Source: Muribaculaceae bacterium (GTDB lineage Bacteria; Bacteroidota; Bacteroidia; Bacteroidales; Muribaculaceae). Taken from it: a stretch of 59,962 nucleotides of DNA. The stretch lies in NCBI GenBank assembly GCA_022509145.1, contig JAFLTX010000003.1, positions 1 through 59,962 on the forward strand, given 5' to 3'. Every line of letters starts with the position of its first letter. Position 1 is the first letter of the stretch. This document shows positions 22,476-47,975 of this stretch, in pieces. Under the pieces are notes generated by a model. It did not search any database and was not told where the DNA came from. It was given only the letters and a program-made list of their open reading frames with translations. The position numbers were made by a program, and so were the translations under genes.

Positions 22476-22482
22476 CCTTTTG

Positions 22483-22553
22483 AGGTTCCAACCAGATTCG
22501 AACTGGTGTGAACGGTTTTGCAGACCGGTACCTAACCACTCGGACATGGAACC
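22483..22553 (-). tRNA. tRNA-Cys (anticodon GCA)
   Basis: On the minus strand the acceptor arm GGTTCCA (22547-22553) pairs with TGGAACC (22484-22490). The T arm is ACCAG-TTCGAAT-CTGGT and the anticodon loop is CTGCAAA, giving GCA. The discriminator base is U (position 22483), as expected for tRNA-Cys. CCA is not encoded. The length is 71 bases. Confidence 0.93.
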
Positions 22554-40908: not shown

Positions 40909-42186
40909 TTAATAGATTTCAATTATTTGTGTTAACTTGGTGTCTGCATCTTCGGTTACCTCAAAAACACGTCTTTTATCGTAATACAACCAGACTCTTA
41001 TACCCGGGAAGGGATGACCATAGCTGTTTGTTAGTCCGAACGAATAAAAATAGTTGGGCACTTTCGGAAATTCCTCTGTCAAGTCTGTGCTGAAATTGTG
41101 TTTCGAGCCATGGTGAGGCACCTGAATTAAACCTAAATTTTCTGCTAACCCTTTTAGTTCTTTGAAGAGAAATCTACAAGTGGTTTCAGAGCCAATAATC
41201 TTGTTGAGGTTTATGTCTCCTGTATATAAAGCCGCAACCAATTTATCCCTTCTAACCTTGTGCCAATTCGATTGGCTTAAATCCCGCTCTTTCGTTATTG
41301 ACTTAACAAAGCAATCTGAATTGCGTCCGGAAACATTATCATTTACTGGACCGGAATAGACAATCAAAGAAGAGTCGTTACGATTGGAAAGTGTTTCCGA
41401 GTTTTCTTTGATATATACGTCATAAACCGGTTTCAATCTTCCCTTAATCTCAACCCAATCCGCAAATAGATTATCTGACTCCTTCTCCGAATATTCTTTA
41501 CCATAAATCTTTATCAAATCCTTAAGCGAATTAAATAATGCCGGATCTGTAATTTGGAGAAATTTTTCAAACCCTTCGTATTCAGAATCATCGCAAATAT
41601 TGAAAGGTATATAACACCATTTTGGAATTAAACCGACTCCGAGCGGAGTGCCACTCCTGATTACTTCCAGCTCCTTTTTCCCATTATTATCAACAACTTT
41701 AATTGGCCGGTTTTCATTGTTATTTTGTGGCTCGTTGGGGGAAAGGGGCCGGGAGCGATTATCCGCAGGATTCACTCTATCTATTTCGATTATTTTCTCT
41801 ATATTATAGTTCTGTTTAAAGGCTCGGATATTGAAAAGGTCTACCTTGCAATTAAGGAAAACAATTATTTTTTGTGCAGGCGAAAGCAGTGGCATTACAC
41901 AGCATTTTATCCGTTTAACCCTCTTGCTGAGATAATCAATGCCATTAATATGGTCCTCATCGAAATGGCTTATAAAGAGAATATCAACCTTAGAGGTGAC
42001 AGGAAAAGCATAATCTATTTTTTTATGAAGCAAATTCCGGTTAAAAGAACCACAATCATATACTACGTTATATAATACAGAATCTTTAAAATCCGCCTGA
42101 TTATATAAAAGTTGTTCGGTATAAAATGCTCCTTGACCTACAGGGTGAAGGGTGCGTTGCATCAAAACTTCGGGCCTCTTAATCAT
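40909..42186 (-). CDS. ComEC-like metallo-beta-lactamase-fold protein
   Basis: A 425-residue protein if translation starts at ATG 42186 (MIKRPEVLM). Other starts are ATG 42162 (MQRTLHPVGQGAF), 42195, or 42387, which would add 67 Cys- and His-rich residues read through a structured leader. The metal motif HFDEDHINGI has the HxDxDH form of ComEC-type domains. YTGDIN and VPHHGSKHN, both typical of ComEC, occur in the second half. There are no membrane helices, so it is a soluble nuclease- or phosphodiesterase-like protein. Similar domains occur in bacterial conflict systems; here no partner is known. Confidence 0.8.
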   Translation of the reverse strand: MIKRPEVLMQRTLHPVGQGAFYTEQLLYNQADFKDSVLYNVVYDCGSFNRNLLHKKIDYAFPVTSKVDILFISHFDEDHINGIDYLSKRVKRIKCCVMPLLSPAQKIIVFLNCKVDLFNIRAFKQNYNIEKIIEIDRVNPADNRSRPLSPNEPQNNNENRPIKVVDNNGKKELEVIRSGTPLGVGLIPKWCYIPFNICDDSEYEGFEKFLQITDPALFNSLKDLIKIYGKEYSEKESDNLFADWVEIKGRLKPVYDVYIKENSETLSNRNDSSLIVYSGPVNDNVSGRNSDCFVKSITKERDLSQSNWHKVRRDKLVAALYTGDINLNKIIGSETTCRFLFKELKGLAENLGLIQVPHHGSKHNFSTDLTEEFPKVPNYFYSFGLTNSYGHPFPGIRVWLYYDKRRVFEVTEDADTKLTQIIEIY

Positions 42187-42189
42187 AAT

Positions 42190-42400
42190 TCCCATCTTGC
42201 CGTCGGCCTCTCCTCGTTGGCACATAGATACAAAAAGAAAAGCGTGAGAGTCTGTATCTCTACTCGTCTCACAAACTGAGGCCCTGGAATGCCTTTCGGA
42301 ATGAAACGAGCAGTAGAGCCTCACGCAGATATGTGAATATAGCATCTCCTCGCGGAGATACCGGAAGTATTCACATTCGAAAGGCATCCATCACTGCTCC
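42190..42400 (-). other. Highly structured leader or ncRNA upstream of the ComEC-like gene
   Basis: On the minus strand this region folds into long stems. ATGCCTTTCG (42289-42298) pairs with 42378-42387, and AATG (42300-42303) with 42374-42377. ATGTGAATA (42331-42339) pairs with 42368-42376. ATCTCC (42344-42349) pairs with 42354-42359, closing a minus-strand GCGA tetraloop (GNRA type). GCGTGAG (42242-42248) pairs with 42320-42326, and GAGCAGT (42308-42314) with 42393-42399. An open frame across it (67 codons) is Cys- and His-rich and may be spurious. Confidence 0.5.
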
Positions 42401-42675: not shown

Positions 42676-43236
42676 ATGTTGAATCAGGAAATCATTAAGA
42701 AGATTGAGGAGAAATTCGGGAAGAAATTGCAATACAGCCATGACTGCGAGGCTCTTTCGGAAGCCATTGCAGAAACCGTGGGGGAGCGCATTTCCGTTGC
42801 CACTCTGAAGCGGATGGCCGGGATGGTGTCAAAAAAATGTCAACCTCGCCTCTCAACAATGGATATCATCGCACAATACATCGGATATCCGAATTATCAG
42901 TTGCTGGCGCAGGATATCGACGACGACACTGAAATTTCTGAGTTTGCCTGGGTGGAGGAACTGGAATCCAAGTCTCTGAAAGAGGGGACACAGCTGCAGA
43001 TAACGTATGACCCCGGACGTGTGTTGGTGTTGACTTATCTCGGCAACGACACATTTATCGTCAACGAATCCTACAAGAGCAAACTGCAGCAGGGAGACGT
43101 GGTGACCATAAGCCATTTCACCAAAGGGTTCGAACTGTTGGTGGCTGATGTGGTGCGCAACGGCGAATCGATTGGCTCATACCAAGCCGCAAAAGCAGGC
43201 GGACTCACAAGCATAGAGTTATTCCTGACGGATTGA
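42676..43236 (+). CDS. Putative HTH-like regulator, function unknown
   Basis: A 186-residue protein I do not recognise by name. The N-terminal 75 residues are helical with a pattern resembling a divergent HTH (ISVATLKRMAG, then RLSTMDIIAQYIGYPNYQLL), common in Bacteroidota regulators. The rest is beta-rich (LQITYDPGRVLVLTYLGND, SKLQQGDVVTISHFTKGFELL). No catalytic motif is seen. It stands between the ComEC-like gene and the kinase gene; it could regulate either neighbour. It is convergent with the kinase gene. Confidence 0.6.
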   Translation: MLNQEIIKKIEEKFGKKLQYSHDCEALSEAIAETVGERISVATLKRMAGMVSKKCQPRLSTMDIIAQYIGYPNYQLLAQDIDDDTEISEFAWVEELESKSLKEGTQLQITYDPGRVLVLTYLGNDTFIVNESYKSKLQQGDVVTISHFTKGFELLVADVVRNGESIGSYQAAKAGGLTSIELFLTD

Positions 43237-43283
43237 TTCAAAGGTCTGTGGAGACACTTTATTCCGACCTCCGCTGAGAATCG

Positions 43284-44597
43284 TCAGTCCGGTATTCTGC
43301 CCGAGAGTCGACGCGTGGCTTCTTCCACTTTCTTTGTCAATGAAATAAAAACCGGCGAGTCTGCCACCTTGAGCTGGGCTTCAGTAGGGGAGATGTCGGG
43401 ATAGAGGTTCCTACATATTCCGTAAGAATCGTGAAGCAAGTCGAGATATCTTTCCGTAATTATGGTGACGGATTGACGTTGCTGGGCTTCATCGAGTTCG
43501 CAGTTTTCGTATTGCCGCATAGTATTCTCCACATATTCCAGCAATGGCTTGAAATGCGCCTTCAACTCCCGGTCTAACTTGGCTGATTGTTGAGCCGTTT
43601 TAGAAACTGCCGCCTCTACAGGTGCCGAAGTTTCAGCTGTAGTTTCCGCAGCGGGAATATCTTTTATCTTTCCCGGCACGGAATCAGTGATCACAGGTAT
43701 TGGCTCTGTGGAGACAGACTCGGTTTGCTCATTTCTCAATTTGACAAAAAATCCGATGAAAACTATTGCCAGGCAACCCACGAAGATTAATATCAGCAGG
43801 CGGTAGTATCTGCGGCCTTCATCATTTTTCCGTCCCCGCCTCTCTTCCCGAGCGGACGATGAACCGGCAAGCAAAATTGTCTTTAACTCTTCGGCTGTAA
43901 CGCCGGGCTTTTTGCACTCCTTGCTGAATCTTGCGATTCTCTTCTTTACAGCCGCCGATTTTACCTTTTCGGCAAGGTGCCCGGCTATGAGCCCTAAACC
44001 GGCGAAGTCGATGTCTGTGTTTCGTTTATCCGTTTCCGCGAGTCCGTATTTGATAGCCGAACCCGATGTGTCAGCCAGATGGGAGGTGTAAACTTTGTCA
44101 AGGTCTACCAAGGCCACATTGTTCCCAGCGTATGTAAGCAGAACGTTATCGGATTTGATATCGCAGTGAATCACGCCTTTACGGTGCAGATACTCCAGAA
44201 CTTCAAGCAGCTGTTCAATCACCTTGGCAGCGTTCTTCCCGTCTGCCAGCCATTCATCTTCCGTTGCCAACATCTCGGCGAGTGTGCGGCCGTCGATGTA
44301 ATTCATCACGATGTAATCGCCTTGGAAGTCGATGTAAACGGGGAGAGCCGGATGCGAGAGTCCGACACCAATTTCATACTCCTTCTCAAACGCGGCACGA
44401 TGACGCGCACTGTTTCTATACTTCTCCTTCAGCCTTTTCACAAAGACCTTGCGATGCTTCAGCTCGGTGACGTAAGCGTCGCAAGTGCTTCCCGTCGTAT
44501 TCAGTCTTTTGGCCCGAGAGAAGTCGACGCCAGAGCTGGCCTCACTTGGGTTGAAGTCAGGAGTGAAATCAGAGGAAAAGTTCTCGTTATCGCCCAT
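43284..44597 (-). CDS. Membrane-anchored Hanks-type Ser/Thr kinase, degenerate DFG
   Basis: A 437-residue protein. The cytoplasmic kinase domain (about 28-245) has Lys54 (VFVKRL), Glu73 (helix C) and HCDIKSDN (144-151) with Asp146, Lys148 and Asn151, so the catalytic loop is of the non-RD type (Cys instead of Arg). The DFG motif is DLD (165-167), and the Gly-rich loop is poor. It may be weakly active, use a different mechanism or be a pseudokinase. One membrane helix (about 266-286) leads to a periplasmic tail rich in Thr and Ala, then helices. The start lies inside the WYL gene by 11 bases, so they form an operon. Confidence 0.85.
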   Translation of the reverse strand: MGDNENFSSDFTPDFNPSEASSGVDFSRAKRLNTTGSTCDAYVTELKHRKVFVKRLKEKYRNSARHRAAFEKEYEIGVGLSHPALPVYIDFQGDYIVMNYIDGRTLAEMLATEDEWLADGKNAAKVIEQLLEVLEYLHRKGVIHCDIKSDNVLLTYAGNNVALVDLDKVYTSHLADTSGSAIKYGLAETDKRNTDIDFAGLGLIAGHLAEKVKSAAVKKRIARFSKECKKPGVTAEELKTILLAGSSSAREERRGRKNDEGRRYYRLLILIFVGCLAIVFIGFFVKLRNEQTESVSTEPIPVITDSVPGKIKDIPAAETTAETSAPVEAAVSKTAQQSAKLDRELKAHFKPLLEYVENTMRQYENCELDEAQQRQSVTIITERYLDLLHDSYGICRNLYPDISPTEAQLKVADSPVFISLTKKVEEATRRLSGRIPD

Positions 44598-45639
44598 TAT
44601 TCTTATCCTGATCGGCTATGGCTGCCGGGTCGTATTTCTTCAGTGCCTCGTGGAAAATCTTACGCAGATGCCTCACGGCGCTTTTTGGGGCCAGTATCTG
44701 AATGCCGTCGCCGAAGCTCAGGAAGGCCTTGTAAAGTTCGGTGTTAAGCAATATATCGACAAGCTCAAACGTCATCGAGCCGTCTTCCTTATTCTTGGAA
44801 ATGAGCTTCTGGGAGGAATGGATAGGCTTTGTGAGGATGTAGCTGGCGTGCTGGTTGTTGGCGATGAAGCGCACGGTGGCTTTCTCAAGTCGGTCGTGTT
44901 TCGTAACTCCCACCACATCGTCGAAATAATCGTCGCCGAAGTCAGGGTTATCCTTGAACGGGATGTCGGCACAGGGATGGAAATCCTCGATTCTGTCGAG
45001 AGCGAGATTGAAGAGCTTCATATCGCCGGCACGGCTGCCGAAAAGAAACCAGCGGTTGTTAAACTCCTTCAGCAGATAGGGAAACAAGATAAACTCGCTT
45101 GCCTGGCGGGCGTTGAACGAACGGTAATTGATATTGACGGTGGTTCGCGAGGCGATTATGTCGTAAAGCGGATTGAGAAACTGAATCCCCTTCAAATCCG
45201 GATTACGCTCGAAAGAGACAATCCTTCTTCGTTGGGAAGCAGCTGCTATTTTATCCTGAAGGCGGTTCACGACGTCGGCCATCTCGTGCATGGGGTCGAA
45301 CTCGTCGAAATCGCGCAGAAGGTCGATGGTGCGGTTAAGCACGTTGATGTCTTCCTGCGAGAGCTGGCGGTTGCTGATGGAGTATTCGGGATCGGCATAG
45401 CGATAATACTTGCGGTCATATACCTCTATCGGAGCTTCGTAACCGAGTTTGTCGCTGCGCATCATCTCGATGTCGCGCTGCACGCTTCGCACACTCACCA
45501 GGTCTTGCTTCCCCTCGTATTCATACAGCGCGTCGCTGCAGGCGTCCACAAGGTCCTGAAGAGTCCATCGCCGCCCGGTGTTTCTCAAACATCGGTCGAT
45601 GGTCCGGTAGCGTAGCAGCGCGTTCTTATTCTGCGGCAT
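44587..45639 (-). CDS. WYL-domain transcriptional regulator
   Basis: A 350-residue protein. ATG 45639 (MPQNKNALLRY) is preferred to a TTG at 45654. The N-terminal winged helix (about 1-80; RYRTIDRCLRN, SVRSVQRDIEMMRS) is of the DeoR/YafY type. The WYL domain (about 150-235) has INYRSFNARQASEFILFPYLLKEFNNRWFLFG, where the tryptophan-tyrosine-leucine is W-F-L. A C-terminal extension follows. WYL proteins bind nucleotides or nucleic acid and act as regulators, often in defence or RNA-damage loci. It is divergent from rtcB, with a palindrome between them. Confidence 0.9.
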   Translation of the reverse strand: MPQNKNALLRYRTIDRCLRNTGRRWTLQDLVDACSDALYEYEGKQDLVSVRSVQRDIEMMRSDKLGYEAPIEVYDRKYYRYADPEYSISNRQLSQEDINVLNRTIDLLRDFDEFDPMHEMADVVNRLQDKIAAASQRRRIVSFERNPDLKGIQFLNPLYDIIASRTTVNINYRSFNARQASEFILFPYLLKEFNNRWFLFGSRAGDMKLFNLALDRIEDFHPCADIPFKDNPDFGDDYFDDVVGVTKHDRLEKATVRFIANNQHASYILTKPIHSSQKLISKNKEDGSMTFELVDILLNTELYKAFLSFGDGIQILAPKSAVRHLRKIFHEALKKYDPAAIADQDKNNGR

Positions 45640-45670
45640 AACATTTTTTTGCAAATTTAATAAAATTTTT

Positions 45671-45699
45671 GTTATTACGCCAAAACATGGCGTAATGAC
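45671..45699. promoter_or_regulatory. Palindromic operator between WYL gene and rtcB
   Basis: ATTACGCC (45674-45681) and GGCGTAAT (45689-45696) are perfect arms with a 7-base centre; with one G-T wobble they extend to 11 bases (45671-45699). The -7-like TAATTTCG of rtcB is at 45703-45710, so the palindrome covers the -33 region. Likely the WYL protein's binding site; inferred. Confidence 0.65.
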
Positions 45700-45738
45700 G
45701 CTCTAATTTCGCAGCATAAATGATAAAAAAGCAGAATT

Positions 45739-46911
45739 ATGGAAGTAAAAACTATCAACGGAGTCATCGTGAAAAACTGGGCGACCCAGCTCGATCAGCA
45801 CGCCCAGGAGGAAATCGAAAACTTGTGCCGGTTGCCCTTCATCCACCATCATCTCGCCTTGATGCCTGACGCTCACGGCGGGAAGGGGATGCCTATCGGG
45901 GGAGTTTTGGCTACAAAAGGAGTGGTGGTGCCTAACGCTGTAGGCGTCGACATCGGTTGTGGTATGTGCGCGGTGAAGACATCTGTCAAAGTATCTGACT
46001 TGACCCCTGATCTGCTCCGAAAGGGAATCTTGCGCGGTATTCGCAAACGTGTACCCCTCGGCCGTGAGCACCACAAGAAGGCGCAGGACGAGAATTTCAT
46101 GCCCCAAGGTTTCGACATCGACTCGATGACAATAGTGAAGCGCCAGTATGAGTCGGCCAAGAAGCAGATAGGGACTCTTGGCGGAGGGAACCATTTCATC
46201 GAGCTTCAGAAGGACGACGAAGGGAATATGTGGATAATGATTCATTCCGGGTCCCGAAATCTCGGCAAGCAGGTTGGTGACTACTACAACGAAAAGGCAG
46301 CTGCCTTGAACCGTCGCTGGTATTCTTCGGTGGCTCCGGAACTCAACTTGCCGTTCCTTCCTGTTAGAACCGACGAGTTTAAGCAATACTGGGCCGAGAT
46401 GGAATATTGCGTGGAATTTGCACTTTGCAACCGGCGGCTTATGATGGAGCGCATTCAGGAAGCAATTCTCGAAGTGTTGCCTGAAACGACCTTTGAACCG
46501 ATGATTAACATCGCCCATAACTATGCCGCGTGGGAGGAGCATTACGGAGAACATTGCATAGTTCACCGGAAGGGAGCCACGTTGGCTACGACAGGAACCG
46601 TCGGCATCATACCGGGTTCGCAGGGCACCTGCTCCTACATCACCGAGGGCCTCGGCAACCCTGAGTCGTTCAACTCCTGCTCCCACGGTGCCGGAAGAAG
46701 ACTCTCACGCACTCAAGCGCGTCTCGAACTCTCGCTTGAAGAGGAAGTTGCCCGACTGGAGCAGATGGGAATAGTCCATGCCGTCCGCTACAAAGCAGAC
46801 CTTGACGAAGCCACCGGCGCATACAAGAACATCGACGAAGTGATGGCTGCACAGTCCGACCTGGTGAAAATCCGCACCAAGCTCCTCCCCATCGCCGTCA
46901 TCAAAGGATAA
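45739..46911 (+). CDS. rtcB: RtcB family RNA-splicing ligase
   Basis: A 390-residue Mn- and GTP-dependent RNA ligase that joins 2',3'-cyclic phosphate to 5'-OH ends. Motifs: DAHGGKGMPIGGVL (44-57), GVDIGCGM with Cys74 as a metal ligand, GGGNHFIEL (148-156), HSGSRNLG (169-176), NIAHNYA, IPGSQGTCSYI and SCSHGAGR with the guanylylated His316. The length is short for RtcB but all motifs remain. No archease or PrfH gene is adjacent. It is divergent from the WYL-kinase operon and may be controlled by it. Confidence 0.92.
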   Translation: MEVKTINGVIVKNWATQLDQHAQEEIENLCRLPFIHHHLALMPDAHGGKGMPIGGVLATKGVVVPNAVGVDIGCGMCAVKTSVKVSDLTPDLLRKGILRGIRKRVPLGREHHKKAQDENFMPQGFDIDSMTIVKRQYESAKKQIGTLGGGNHFIELQKDDEGNMWIMIHSGSRNLGKQVGDYYNEKAAALNRRWYSSVAPELNLPFLPVRTDEFKQYWAEMEYCVEFALCNRRLMMERIQEAILEVLPETTFEPMINIAHNYAAWEEHYGEHCIVHRKGATLATTGTVGIIPGSQGTCSYITEGLGNPESFNSCSHGAGRRLSRTQARLELSLEEEVARLEQMGIVHAVRYKADLDEATGAYKNIDEVMAAQSDLVKIRTKLLPIAVIKG

Positions 46912-47036
46912 AACCAGATTGACTACGCAGAAGAATTGACCCGAATGTTCATAGGCTAAATGAAAATTTTAAGGAATTCGCATCTTAATTCTGAGTAACT
47001 TATAAAAATTACGTAAACCAAAATCAAACAATAGAT

Positions 47037-47975
47037 ATGAGAAACAGAAACACCGAACCGGAATTCAATAAGTACCACTTCTTCGCATCTGACGGAGAGA
47101 AGGGGATGACCGCCACGTCTGCCAACAAACTTGCAAATCTTGCAAAGGAGCGCAACCGCGAGGACATGCTCCTCATCCAGAACGTTCGCTTCTACAACGA
47201 GGTGATGACGCTGCTCGTCAAACCTTCGGAAAAGGTTGTCCTGAGCGAAGGGATGAACGGCAGCCAGCAAGAGTTTGACAAACTCCGCGAAGCACTTCTG
47301 CGCACGGCACGCTTCAACGCTTTCATCTCATGGGTGCGCGAGGCTATTGCAGCAAAGGAGGCTCTTATTAAGGAGGTGAACGATACCGAGGTTTGCTCCT
47401 GGTGCAAGAAGCAGGGAATCGAATATCCTACCGCGCCCGAAAACGAGGTGGATAAGGAGATGCACGAATCGCGTTCGGCTGCACAAGCCACTATCGACGA
47501 GATGGCCCGCTATTTCGCCAATCAGTCAATGGCGTCTGTTTTGGGTCAGGCAATCCATCCGGAAGGGCCGATCGACGAAGCGCGACGCGCCCTGATTGAG
47601 GCTACAATGGCTCCGTCACAAACCGAGGGTTATGGTCAGGATACCGTGATCAAGACGAAAGAGGCAACGGCGACAACTGACGCTGTAACAGCTTTTTACA
47701 TGGCTCTTCAGGCTGAGTGGAGACATGCGGAAGCGGCAGTCAACGAAGCCAAAGGGAAGTGGCAGTCGGCCGATAAGGAAAGGCTTATCGAATTGGTCAA
47801 CGAATACGACGCCAAAAAACGCGATTATAATCTGAAATTAGCTAAAATCGAGGCCGATTTCGGACAATGGCAGCTGCAAGAGACGCGTCGGCTCGGCAAG
47901 CTTAAGATTCGTGTTCCGGCCGCCTTGCAGCCGGTGCTTGACGAGTTGCTGACCTTAGGTAAAGCAGAGCAATGA
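47037..47975 (+). CDS. Unrecognised protein downstream of rtcB
   Basis: A 312-residue soluble protein without a family I recognise. The N-terminal part is helical (ATSANKLANLAKERNREDML, IQNVRFYNEVMTLL). The middle has CSWCKKQ (CxxC). The C-terminal third is a probable coiled coil (EAAVNEAKGKWQSADKERL, LAKIEADFGQWQLQETRR). No signal peptide or membrane helix is present. It lies 125 bases after rtcB on the same strand; whether they share a transcript is uncertain. Downstream is a long stretch without genes. Confidence 0.65.
   Translation: MRNRNTEPEFNKYHFFASDGEKGMTATSANKLANLAKERNREDMLLIQNVRFYNEVMTLLVKPSEKVVLSEGMNGSQQEFDKLREALLRTARFNAFISWVREAIAAKEALIKEVNDTEVCSWCKKQGIEYPTAPENEVDKEMHESRSAAQATIDEMARYFANQSMASVLGQAIHPEGPIDEARRALIEATMAPSQTEGYGQDTVIKTKEATATTDAVTAFYMALQAEWRHAEAAVNEAKGKWQSADKERLIELVNEYDAKKRDYNLKLAKIEADFGQWQLQETRRLGKLKIRVPAALQPVLDELLTLGKAEQ

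Follow-up and report, generated by a model that had tools for sequence, protein, structure and literature searches.

Among regulators built on a WYL domain, DriD acts in a bidirectional promoter, at sites that keep one distance from the -10 element and cover poor -35 elements (PMC12340889), and PafBC is positioned between sigma domain 4 and the DNA and replaces recognition of the -35 element (PMC11804915). The ligand of both is single-stranded DNA (PMC12340889, PMC11804915). The box of a third WYL protein, BrxR, is an inverted repeat with 11-bp arms and a 5-bp spacer (PMC9122601). For RNA repair, a described switch is RtcR, which turns on the RNA ligase RtcB, sometimes together with Ro60/Rsr (rsr-yrlBA-rtcBA; Salmonella, E. 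coli), and reads tRNA halves with a cyclic phosphate (PMC7790460). It has also been put forward in print that CARF and WYL factors, of which some regulate RNA repair, might respond to cyclic-phosphate RNAs (PMC9503650). Here we describe a locus in which a gene for a WYL protein faces rtcB across a palindrome, followed by a gene for a 312-residue protein. It lies in a stretch of 59,962 nucleotides (the window, meaning the whole stretch analyzed) from contig JAFLTX010000003.1 of a Muribaculaceae bacterium (assembly GCA_022509145.1; 2.06 Mb, 88% complete).

An earlier note, a reading of the window from its sequence only, had proposed that a Hanks-type kinase and the WYL regulator form a switch for RNA repair. 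We followed it up by computational comparison across genomes and by Pfam, profile, and fold searches. On balance, the comparison favors a WYL protein that acts as a DriD-like, ligand-triggered activator of RNA repair, and not a kinase-driven switch.

Pairing of WYL and rtcB genes across genomes

We compared a family set of 297 genomes, taking as a close WYL gene any profile match at E 1e-100 or below. Among the matches listed there were 80 such genes, in 79 genomes, and for 59 of the 80 an RtcB gene lies no more than 3 kb away; it is divergent in 45 cases, follows on the same strand in 13, and is arranged otherwise in 1. For 3 of the others RtcB is farther along the contig, and for 18 there is none on the contig. 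RtcB is found in 71 of the 79 genomes with a close WYL gene versus 26 of the 218 without one. In named genomes, where we took the best 80 of at least 467 confirmed WYL matches, the fetched stretch held an RtcB gene at 43 loci, which range from Bacteroides and Dysgonomonas to Chryseobacterium and Aquimarina. The partner is not a single RtcB orthologue; in genome G016, a WYL protein 73% identical to that of the window faces an RtcB that is 32% identical. When these best 80 of at least 467 named loci were taken together with the WYL-holding loci L096-L118, the genes within 5 kb included RtcB at 51, RlaP at 17, TROVE/Ro60 at 15, the 312-residue family at 6, and a Prok-RING_4 protein at 5. The named and unnamed sets overlap slightly (L096 and L171 are one contig, and L216 and L235 carry an identical WYL protein). 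At one locus (L101:9046-12822), a single WYL gene (39% identical) lies between two RtcB genes that differ from each other, and both of these have a box of their own.

The earlier note named as its refutation a gene adjacency confined to this strain. For WYL with rtcB this is not the case, as the pairing, the box, and the promoter position described below all recur widely. The comparison supports that part of the proposal in which a WYL regulator works through the palindrome to control rtcB and, probably, the 312-residue gene as well; the part given to the kinase is not supported.

A shared box upstream of RNA-repair genes

The palindrome between the WYL gene and rtcB was located where the earlier note had placed it. 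This putative operator (Table 1) reads GTTATTACGCCA-AAACA-TGGCGTAATGAC and is centered on 45685, with 12-base arms in which 11 of 12 positions pair and a 5-base spacer. The pattern TRCGCMANNNNNTKGCGYA has a single match in the 2.06-Mb assembly, at the palindrome itself, and loosening the pattern brings in one more, which falls within a coding open reading frame (ORF). The palindrome exceeds chance.

A generic search for palindromes is weak on its own: 65 of 98 WYL upstream regions had at least 8 of 11 bases paired, a score also reached in about one-third of shuffles and in nearly half of the upstream regions of other genes. We therefore required a sequence-specific box, whose common form is TRCGCAA-N5-TTGCGYA. 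In its strict form (YRCGCAR-N5-YTGCGYR, searched in the 400 bp upstream of WYL genes), the box precedes 39 of 99 WYL genes, with 0.0 in shuffles; it was found at 25 of the 50 with RtcB within 5 kb and at 14 of the 49 without. A slightly looser form gave 87 sites in 120 fetched loci (1.54 Mb) and none in 0.85 Mb of shuffled sequence. All but one of these sites (86/87) are no more than 350 bp from the start of a gene, chiefly WYL (45), RtcB (36), TROVE (10), the 312-residue family (6), and RlaP (6).

Since the 120 loci had been picked for such genes, whole genomes are the fair test of the box. Twenty-five named whole genomes held 44 sites, distributed over 20 of them with 0 to 5 in any one genome, and the pattern written backwards had no match. 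In the 20 stretches fetched around part of these 44 sites, the box stands before an RtcB 71% identical to that of the window (L332), before RtcB, RlaP, and TROVE at a single locus (L345), and before RlaP (L336), TROVE (L348), and a Prok-RING_4 gene (L334). Bacteroides cellulosilyticus DSM 14838 carries such an RtcB (71% identical) with a box 55 bp ahead of it, and its WYL homologue is at another place in the genome. In the family set, the strict box occurs in 70 of the 79 genomes with a close WYL gene versus 31 of the 218 without, compared with 7/79 and 26/218 for the backwards control. The genome of the window is among the 70 only through a match inside an ORF, as the strict pattern misses its variant box; with the looser pattern, the window box is the only promoter-placed site in its genome.

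These distributions bear on the idea that control by the WYL protein is only local, limited to its own gene and the mobile or defense genes that accompany it, with repair genes as one set among many and no regulon. Close WYL genes are indeed patchy (79/297 genomes), and distant WYL homologues lie beside defense-like loci in gene maps (L105, L106, L108, and L115-L118). However, the box marks genomes that carry a close WYL gene, and it also precedes genes for RtcB, TROVE, or the 312-residue family where no WYL gene adjoins (L112, L120, L132, L332, and L348). We consider a purely local role very unlikely.

Several arrangements of the box are worth recording. At seven loci (L177, L185, L188, L190, L279, L280, and L281), two boxes lie about 68-70 bp apart, one near the WYL gene and one near the divergent repair gene. 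At L340, L343, and L344, a Band-7/SPFH gene lies 0.7-1.6 kb from the box, and in one direction no large gene begins at the box. In Bacteroides and Dysgonomonas, a Prok-RING_4-like protein (a weak match) of about 746-810 residues is encoded close to the box or to the WYL gene (L192:3457-5697, L333:2337-4583, L334:2679-5111, and L338:2784-5021) and is a candidate member of the regulon.

The WYL protein and its recognition helix

The WYL protein has N-terminal helices, with a recognition helix at about residues 49-60, a WYL domain at 154-220, and a WCX domain at 252-333. This order of an N-terminal DNA-binding domain followed by WYL and WCX is that of DriD and PafBC, with the Pfam WCX match exactly at the cut-off. 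In a sequence-profile search of the PDB, DriD chains were closest (8tp8, E 1.3e-6), followed by PafBC (E ~1e-3); BrxR and CapW were not among the matches at E 0.01. By fold, PafBC was the best match to the model of the WYL protein and DriD was among the best, over the whole length (E 1.6e-12 to 2e-10), and CapW and BrxR were weaker yet significant (E ~1e-8 to 1e-7).

The recognition helix gives a way to connect this protein to the box. We collected 82 distinct WYL relatives at least 43% identical to that of the window, of which 78 could be parsed at the helix. T52 is present in 77 of these and Q58 in 76, and R55 is present in none. The window protein has S52, R55, and E58. One of the four unparsed relatives, at L176, has R55 and E58 with T52, such that R55 with E58 is confined to the window and L176 among the 83 distinct proteins (the 82 relatives and that of the window). 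The boxes differ at the same two loci: C:G replaces A:T in both arms of the window box, in one arm at L176, and in none of the other 86 sites. Because helix and box have changed jointly in only these two cases, we regard this as good circumstantial evidence that the window WYL protein reads the window box. The window and L176 may share one ancestor in which the change arose.

Promoter geometry

Promoters of Bacteroidota have a -33/-7 consensus, with TTTG at -33 and TAnnTTTG at -7. Core-like sites before other genes in our set agree with it, showing a TTTG peak at a gap of 19-20. Of 35 RtcB flanks, 30 have a TTTG core that begins at +19, counted from the box center, and the core is at +19 or +20 in the flanks of TROVE (10/10), RlaP (6/6), and the 312-residue family (4/6). 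WYL flanks are spread over two positions (+18 to +20 in 12/43 and +25 to +27 in 15/43). Overall, TAnnTTTG occurs at +18 to +36 in 63 of 171 half-flanks, compared with 2.65 in shuffles. In the window, the predicted rtcB and WYL cores fall at distances of these kinds (Table 1), and a TTTG within the operator (45681-45684, gap 21) is the likely -33 element of the WYL promoter. Judged from predicted -7 cores, the sites have the DriD/PafBC-type trait of standing at one distance from -7 and overlapping the place of -33.

The same geometry can be read the other way, with the WYL protein as a BrxR/CapW-type repressor that blocks both promoters until a nucleic-acid ligand arising from damage or infection lifts it and frees the rtcB, 312-residue, and WYL genes. 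The box does overlap both promoters, its arms and spacer match those described for the BrxR box (PMC9122601), and both BrxR and CapW give significant matches by fold. However, they rank below PafBC and DriD by fold and have no profile match at the threshold given above, and a spacing of +19/+20 common to unrelated targets is expected of an activator, while a repressor could act from any position on the promoter. We regard repression as a serious but unlikely alternative to activation.

Several observations weigh against an activator with a defined regulon. Half of the WYL genes near RtcB (25/50) have no box of the strict pattern within 400 bp, 9 of the 79 genomes with a close WYL gene have no box, and some sites in named genomes stand before unplaced genes (among them L333, L335, L346, and L350) or inside an ORF (L347). 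The model of the WYL protein is weak (pLDDT 71, pTM 0.35, and TM-scores of 0.2-0.3). The window rtcB core, TAATTTCG, has one mismatch to TAnnTTTG. In favor of an activator, a TTTG at -33 with normal spacing is present in 0/29 core-bearing RtcB promoters, 0/10 TROVE promoters, and 0/6 RlaP promoters, compared with 12/26 WYL promoters and a background of 40/264 core-like sites upstream of other genes, but the box letters themselves largely rule out TTTG there at the +19 spacing, and TTTG is present at -33 in one of the five promoters examined for the 312-residue family and in 5/22 promoters of other genes. The telling point is therefore the fixed spacing at unrelated genes, and fixed spacing alone cannot tell activation from repression.

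RtcB and the 312-residue protein

The Pfam RtcB domain spans residues 26-390 of the window RtcB. Its DxxCG, GNHF, HxGSR, AHN, and HGAGR motifs, which we take to be the metal-binding and guanylate-accepting motifs of RtcB, all align with Pyrococcus RtcB structures. By family membership, the predicted product is an RtcB RNA ligase, which would be expected to join RNA ends carrying a 2',3'-cyclic phosphate or a 3'-phosphate to 5'-OH ends.

The same genome encodes a second RtcB of 399 amino acids (contig C21, L131:6994-10005), located between an AAA_14/DUF4143 ATPase and a PrfH-like protein with an RF-1 domain. The genome-wide pattern search found no box at this second RtcB. PrfH had been described as absent near the window locus, and this is correct; the PrfH-like protein is on another contig. 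RtcA and RtcR domains were absent from the six neighboring proteins scanned with Pfam, a search that did not extend to other parts of the genome.

The 312-residue protein has no NCBIfam or PADLOC match at E 0.1 and no PDB sequence match up to E 1. Its model (pLDDT 73.5, pTM 0.51) gave no significant fold match, the best being to unrelated long-helix proteins (E 0.11, TMq 0.29). Kinship of its N terminus with the 746-residue Prok-RING_4 protein was considered and rejected (hhalign probability 0.4%). The family is present in 30 of the 297 family genomes. The box stands before the gene or its operon in 15 of 30 loci and is lacking in the other 15; at 8 of the 15 loci with a box, there is no WYL gene in the stretch. 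In G022 and G329, a WYL gene, rtcB, and a 312-residue relative occur all together.

The kinase and other neighboring features

The four ORFs for the kinase, the WYL protein, RtcB, and the 312-residue protein are open where the earlier note had them (Table 1), and its reading of the kinase holds in translation: the kinase overlaps the WYL gene by 11 bases (44587-44597) and is non-RD (HCD for HRD), with DLD for DFG. Its role is another matter. In the earlier model, a membrane signal passes through the kinase tail to the WYL protein and hence to RNA repair. In the window, the overlapping genes are probably cotranscribed, and in this strain the 11 shared bases may link their expression; there is also a precedent in CapK/CapS, where a kinase acting on a repressor controls immune operons, although CapK resembles anti-sigma-factor kinases (PMC13373217). 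Across 61 genomes with 23 close WYL matches and 27 RtcB matches, the only kinase match beside either gene is that of the window itself; one further RtcB has kinases on the same contig about 30 kb away.

Elsewhere, the kinase keeps different company. A profile search with the 186-residue protein encoded on the other side of the kinase gave more than 30 matches, of which we inspected 30 loci. A kinase homologue is present at 26 of these and is convergent and adjacent at 21, and a WYL gene is in the stretch only at the window. At L127, L128, and L133, kinase homologues stand tail to tail with the 186-residue gene, apart from WYL and rtcB. Because the neighborhood with WYL or rtcB was seen only in the window and the pairing with the 186-residue gene recurs, the kinase is best seen as a separate module that abuts the WYL gene, and we rejected it as a component of the switch. 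That a membrane signal switches RNA repair by this route seems very improbable. We judge the 186-residue gene to be the convergent partner of the kinase, also separate from the switch. The window genome has seven kinase matches and six matches of the 186-residue family (42676-44597 and contigs C13 and C105).

Beyond this pair, the window encodes a metallo-beta-lactamase (MBL)-fold protein (40909-42387, minus strand) that is weakly like MBL proteins of defense systems (PADLOC LmuA 6.5e-11 and RTasMBL 7.1e-11; NCBIfam Avs1a 1.7e-4). The only Rfam match to a noncoding RNA between 40000 and 50000 is far below the cut-off and within a coding region, and the sole tRNA of the window is at 22482-22553.

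Table 1. Positions of genes and of predicted control elements at the WYL-rtcB locus of the window
Feature	Position	Strand	Remarks
Putative operator	45671..45699	.	Core 45676-45694, a symmetric C:G variant of TRCGCAA-N5-TTGCGYA
Predicted rtcB -7 core, TAATTTCG	45704..45711	+	+19 from operator center; no -33 TTTG at normal spacing
Predicted WYL -7 core, TAAATTTG	45652..45659	-	+26 from operator center
WYL regulator, 350 aa	44587..45639	-	Start taken at ATG; Pfam WYL 9.8e-10, WCX 5.4e-5
RtcB RNA ligase, 390 aa	45739..46911	+	Pfam RtcB 3.7e-111
312-residue all-helical protein	47037..47975	+	Open reading frame; no Pfam match above cut-off
Hanks-type kinase with predicted membrane segment and tail	43284..44597	-	Pfam Pkinase 4.1e-16
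186-residue protein, converging on the kinase	42676..43236	+	Not listed in the earlier note

Discussion

The gene pair, the box, its fixed place in the promoter, its association with WYL genes, and the joint change of helix and box all emerge from comparing sequences; activation rather than repression is what we infer from them. We picture the WYL protein as a one-component sensor-regulator that would bind the palindrome between its own gene and rtcB. Its ligand may be single-stranded nucleic acid, perhaps broken RNA. With ligand bound, it would assist RNA polymerase in using the rtcB promoter, in the manner of Caulobacter DriD. That promoter has its predicted -7 at the distance conserved in the regulon and has no -33 element because the operator fills that place; without the aid of the regulator, it would be expected to have low activity. 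The outcome would be induction of the RtcB ligase. The 312-residue protein would probably be expressed from the same operon, and it may itself have a role in RNA repair. On the other side, the operator covers the likely -33 of the WYL gene, and the WYL protein therefore probably limits its own synthesis.

It is tempting to extend this picture to a phylum-wide response to RNA damage, in which WYL activators of DriD build are tuned to RNA breakage and one box serves a scattered regulon (RtcB, RlaP, Ro60/TROVE, and perhaps SPFH and other parts), with the 312-residue family as a new repair partner. We offer this extension tentatively and hold it to be possible though doubtful. The component families are already known. 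A published link between WYL and rtcB, the box, the geometry, the regulon, and the 312-residue family were not met in the literature searched, which did not include the most relevant review (Burroughs and Aravind 2016), and their novelty is therefore provisional. The nearest published statement is the one on cyclic-phosphate RNAs cited above (PMC9503650).

Induced RNA repair has a worked-out bacterial switch, with RtcR, and the locus described here offers a candidate switch for Bacteroidota, defined by a DNA site, target genes, and a promoter geometry precise enough for laboratory testing. If the proposal is true, WYL regulators, so far known mainly from DNA damage and phage defense, would extend to RNA repair, and an unnamed protein family would join the RNA-repair pathway.

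How does this locus compare with the known systems? The parts that recur around the WYL family and the box are those of the RNA-repair systems with RtcB, RlaP, TROVE, SPFH/Band-7, and PrfH that Burroughs and Aravind reportedly described in 2016. As in the RtcR operon, a divergent or nearby sensor-regulator accompanies RtcB, but RtcR is a CARF protein and a sigma-54 activator, and the regulator here is a WYL protein. BrxR and CapW share with the window protein the domain order, by fold match, and an operator with comparable arms and spacer over the promoter; however, their solved chains are about 270-290 residues, shorter than the 350 residues here, and they repress defense genes. PafBC of mycobacteria is a WYL activator and the best fold match, but it is a heterodimer with DNA-repair targets. 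The nearest comparison is with DriD, the Caulobacter activator of an SOS-independent response to DNA damage, which the window protein resembles in sequence, fold, placement of its predicted sites, and use of a bidirectional promoter. The targets differ: in the Bacteroidota examined here, the predicted ones are RNA-repair genes.

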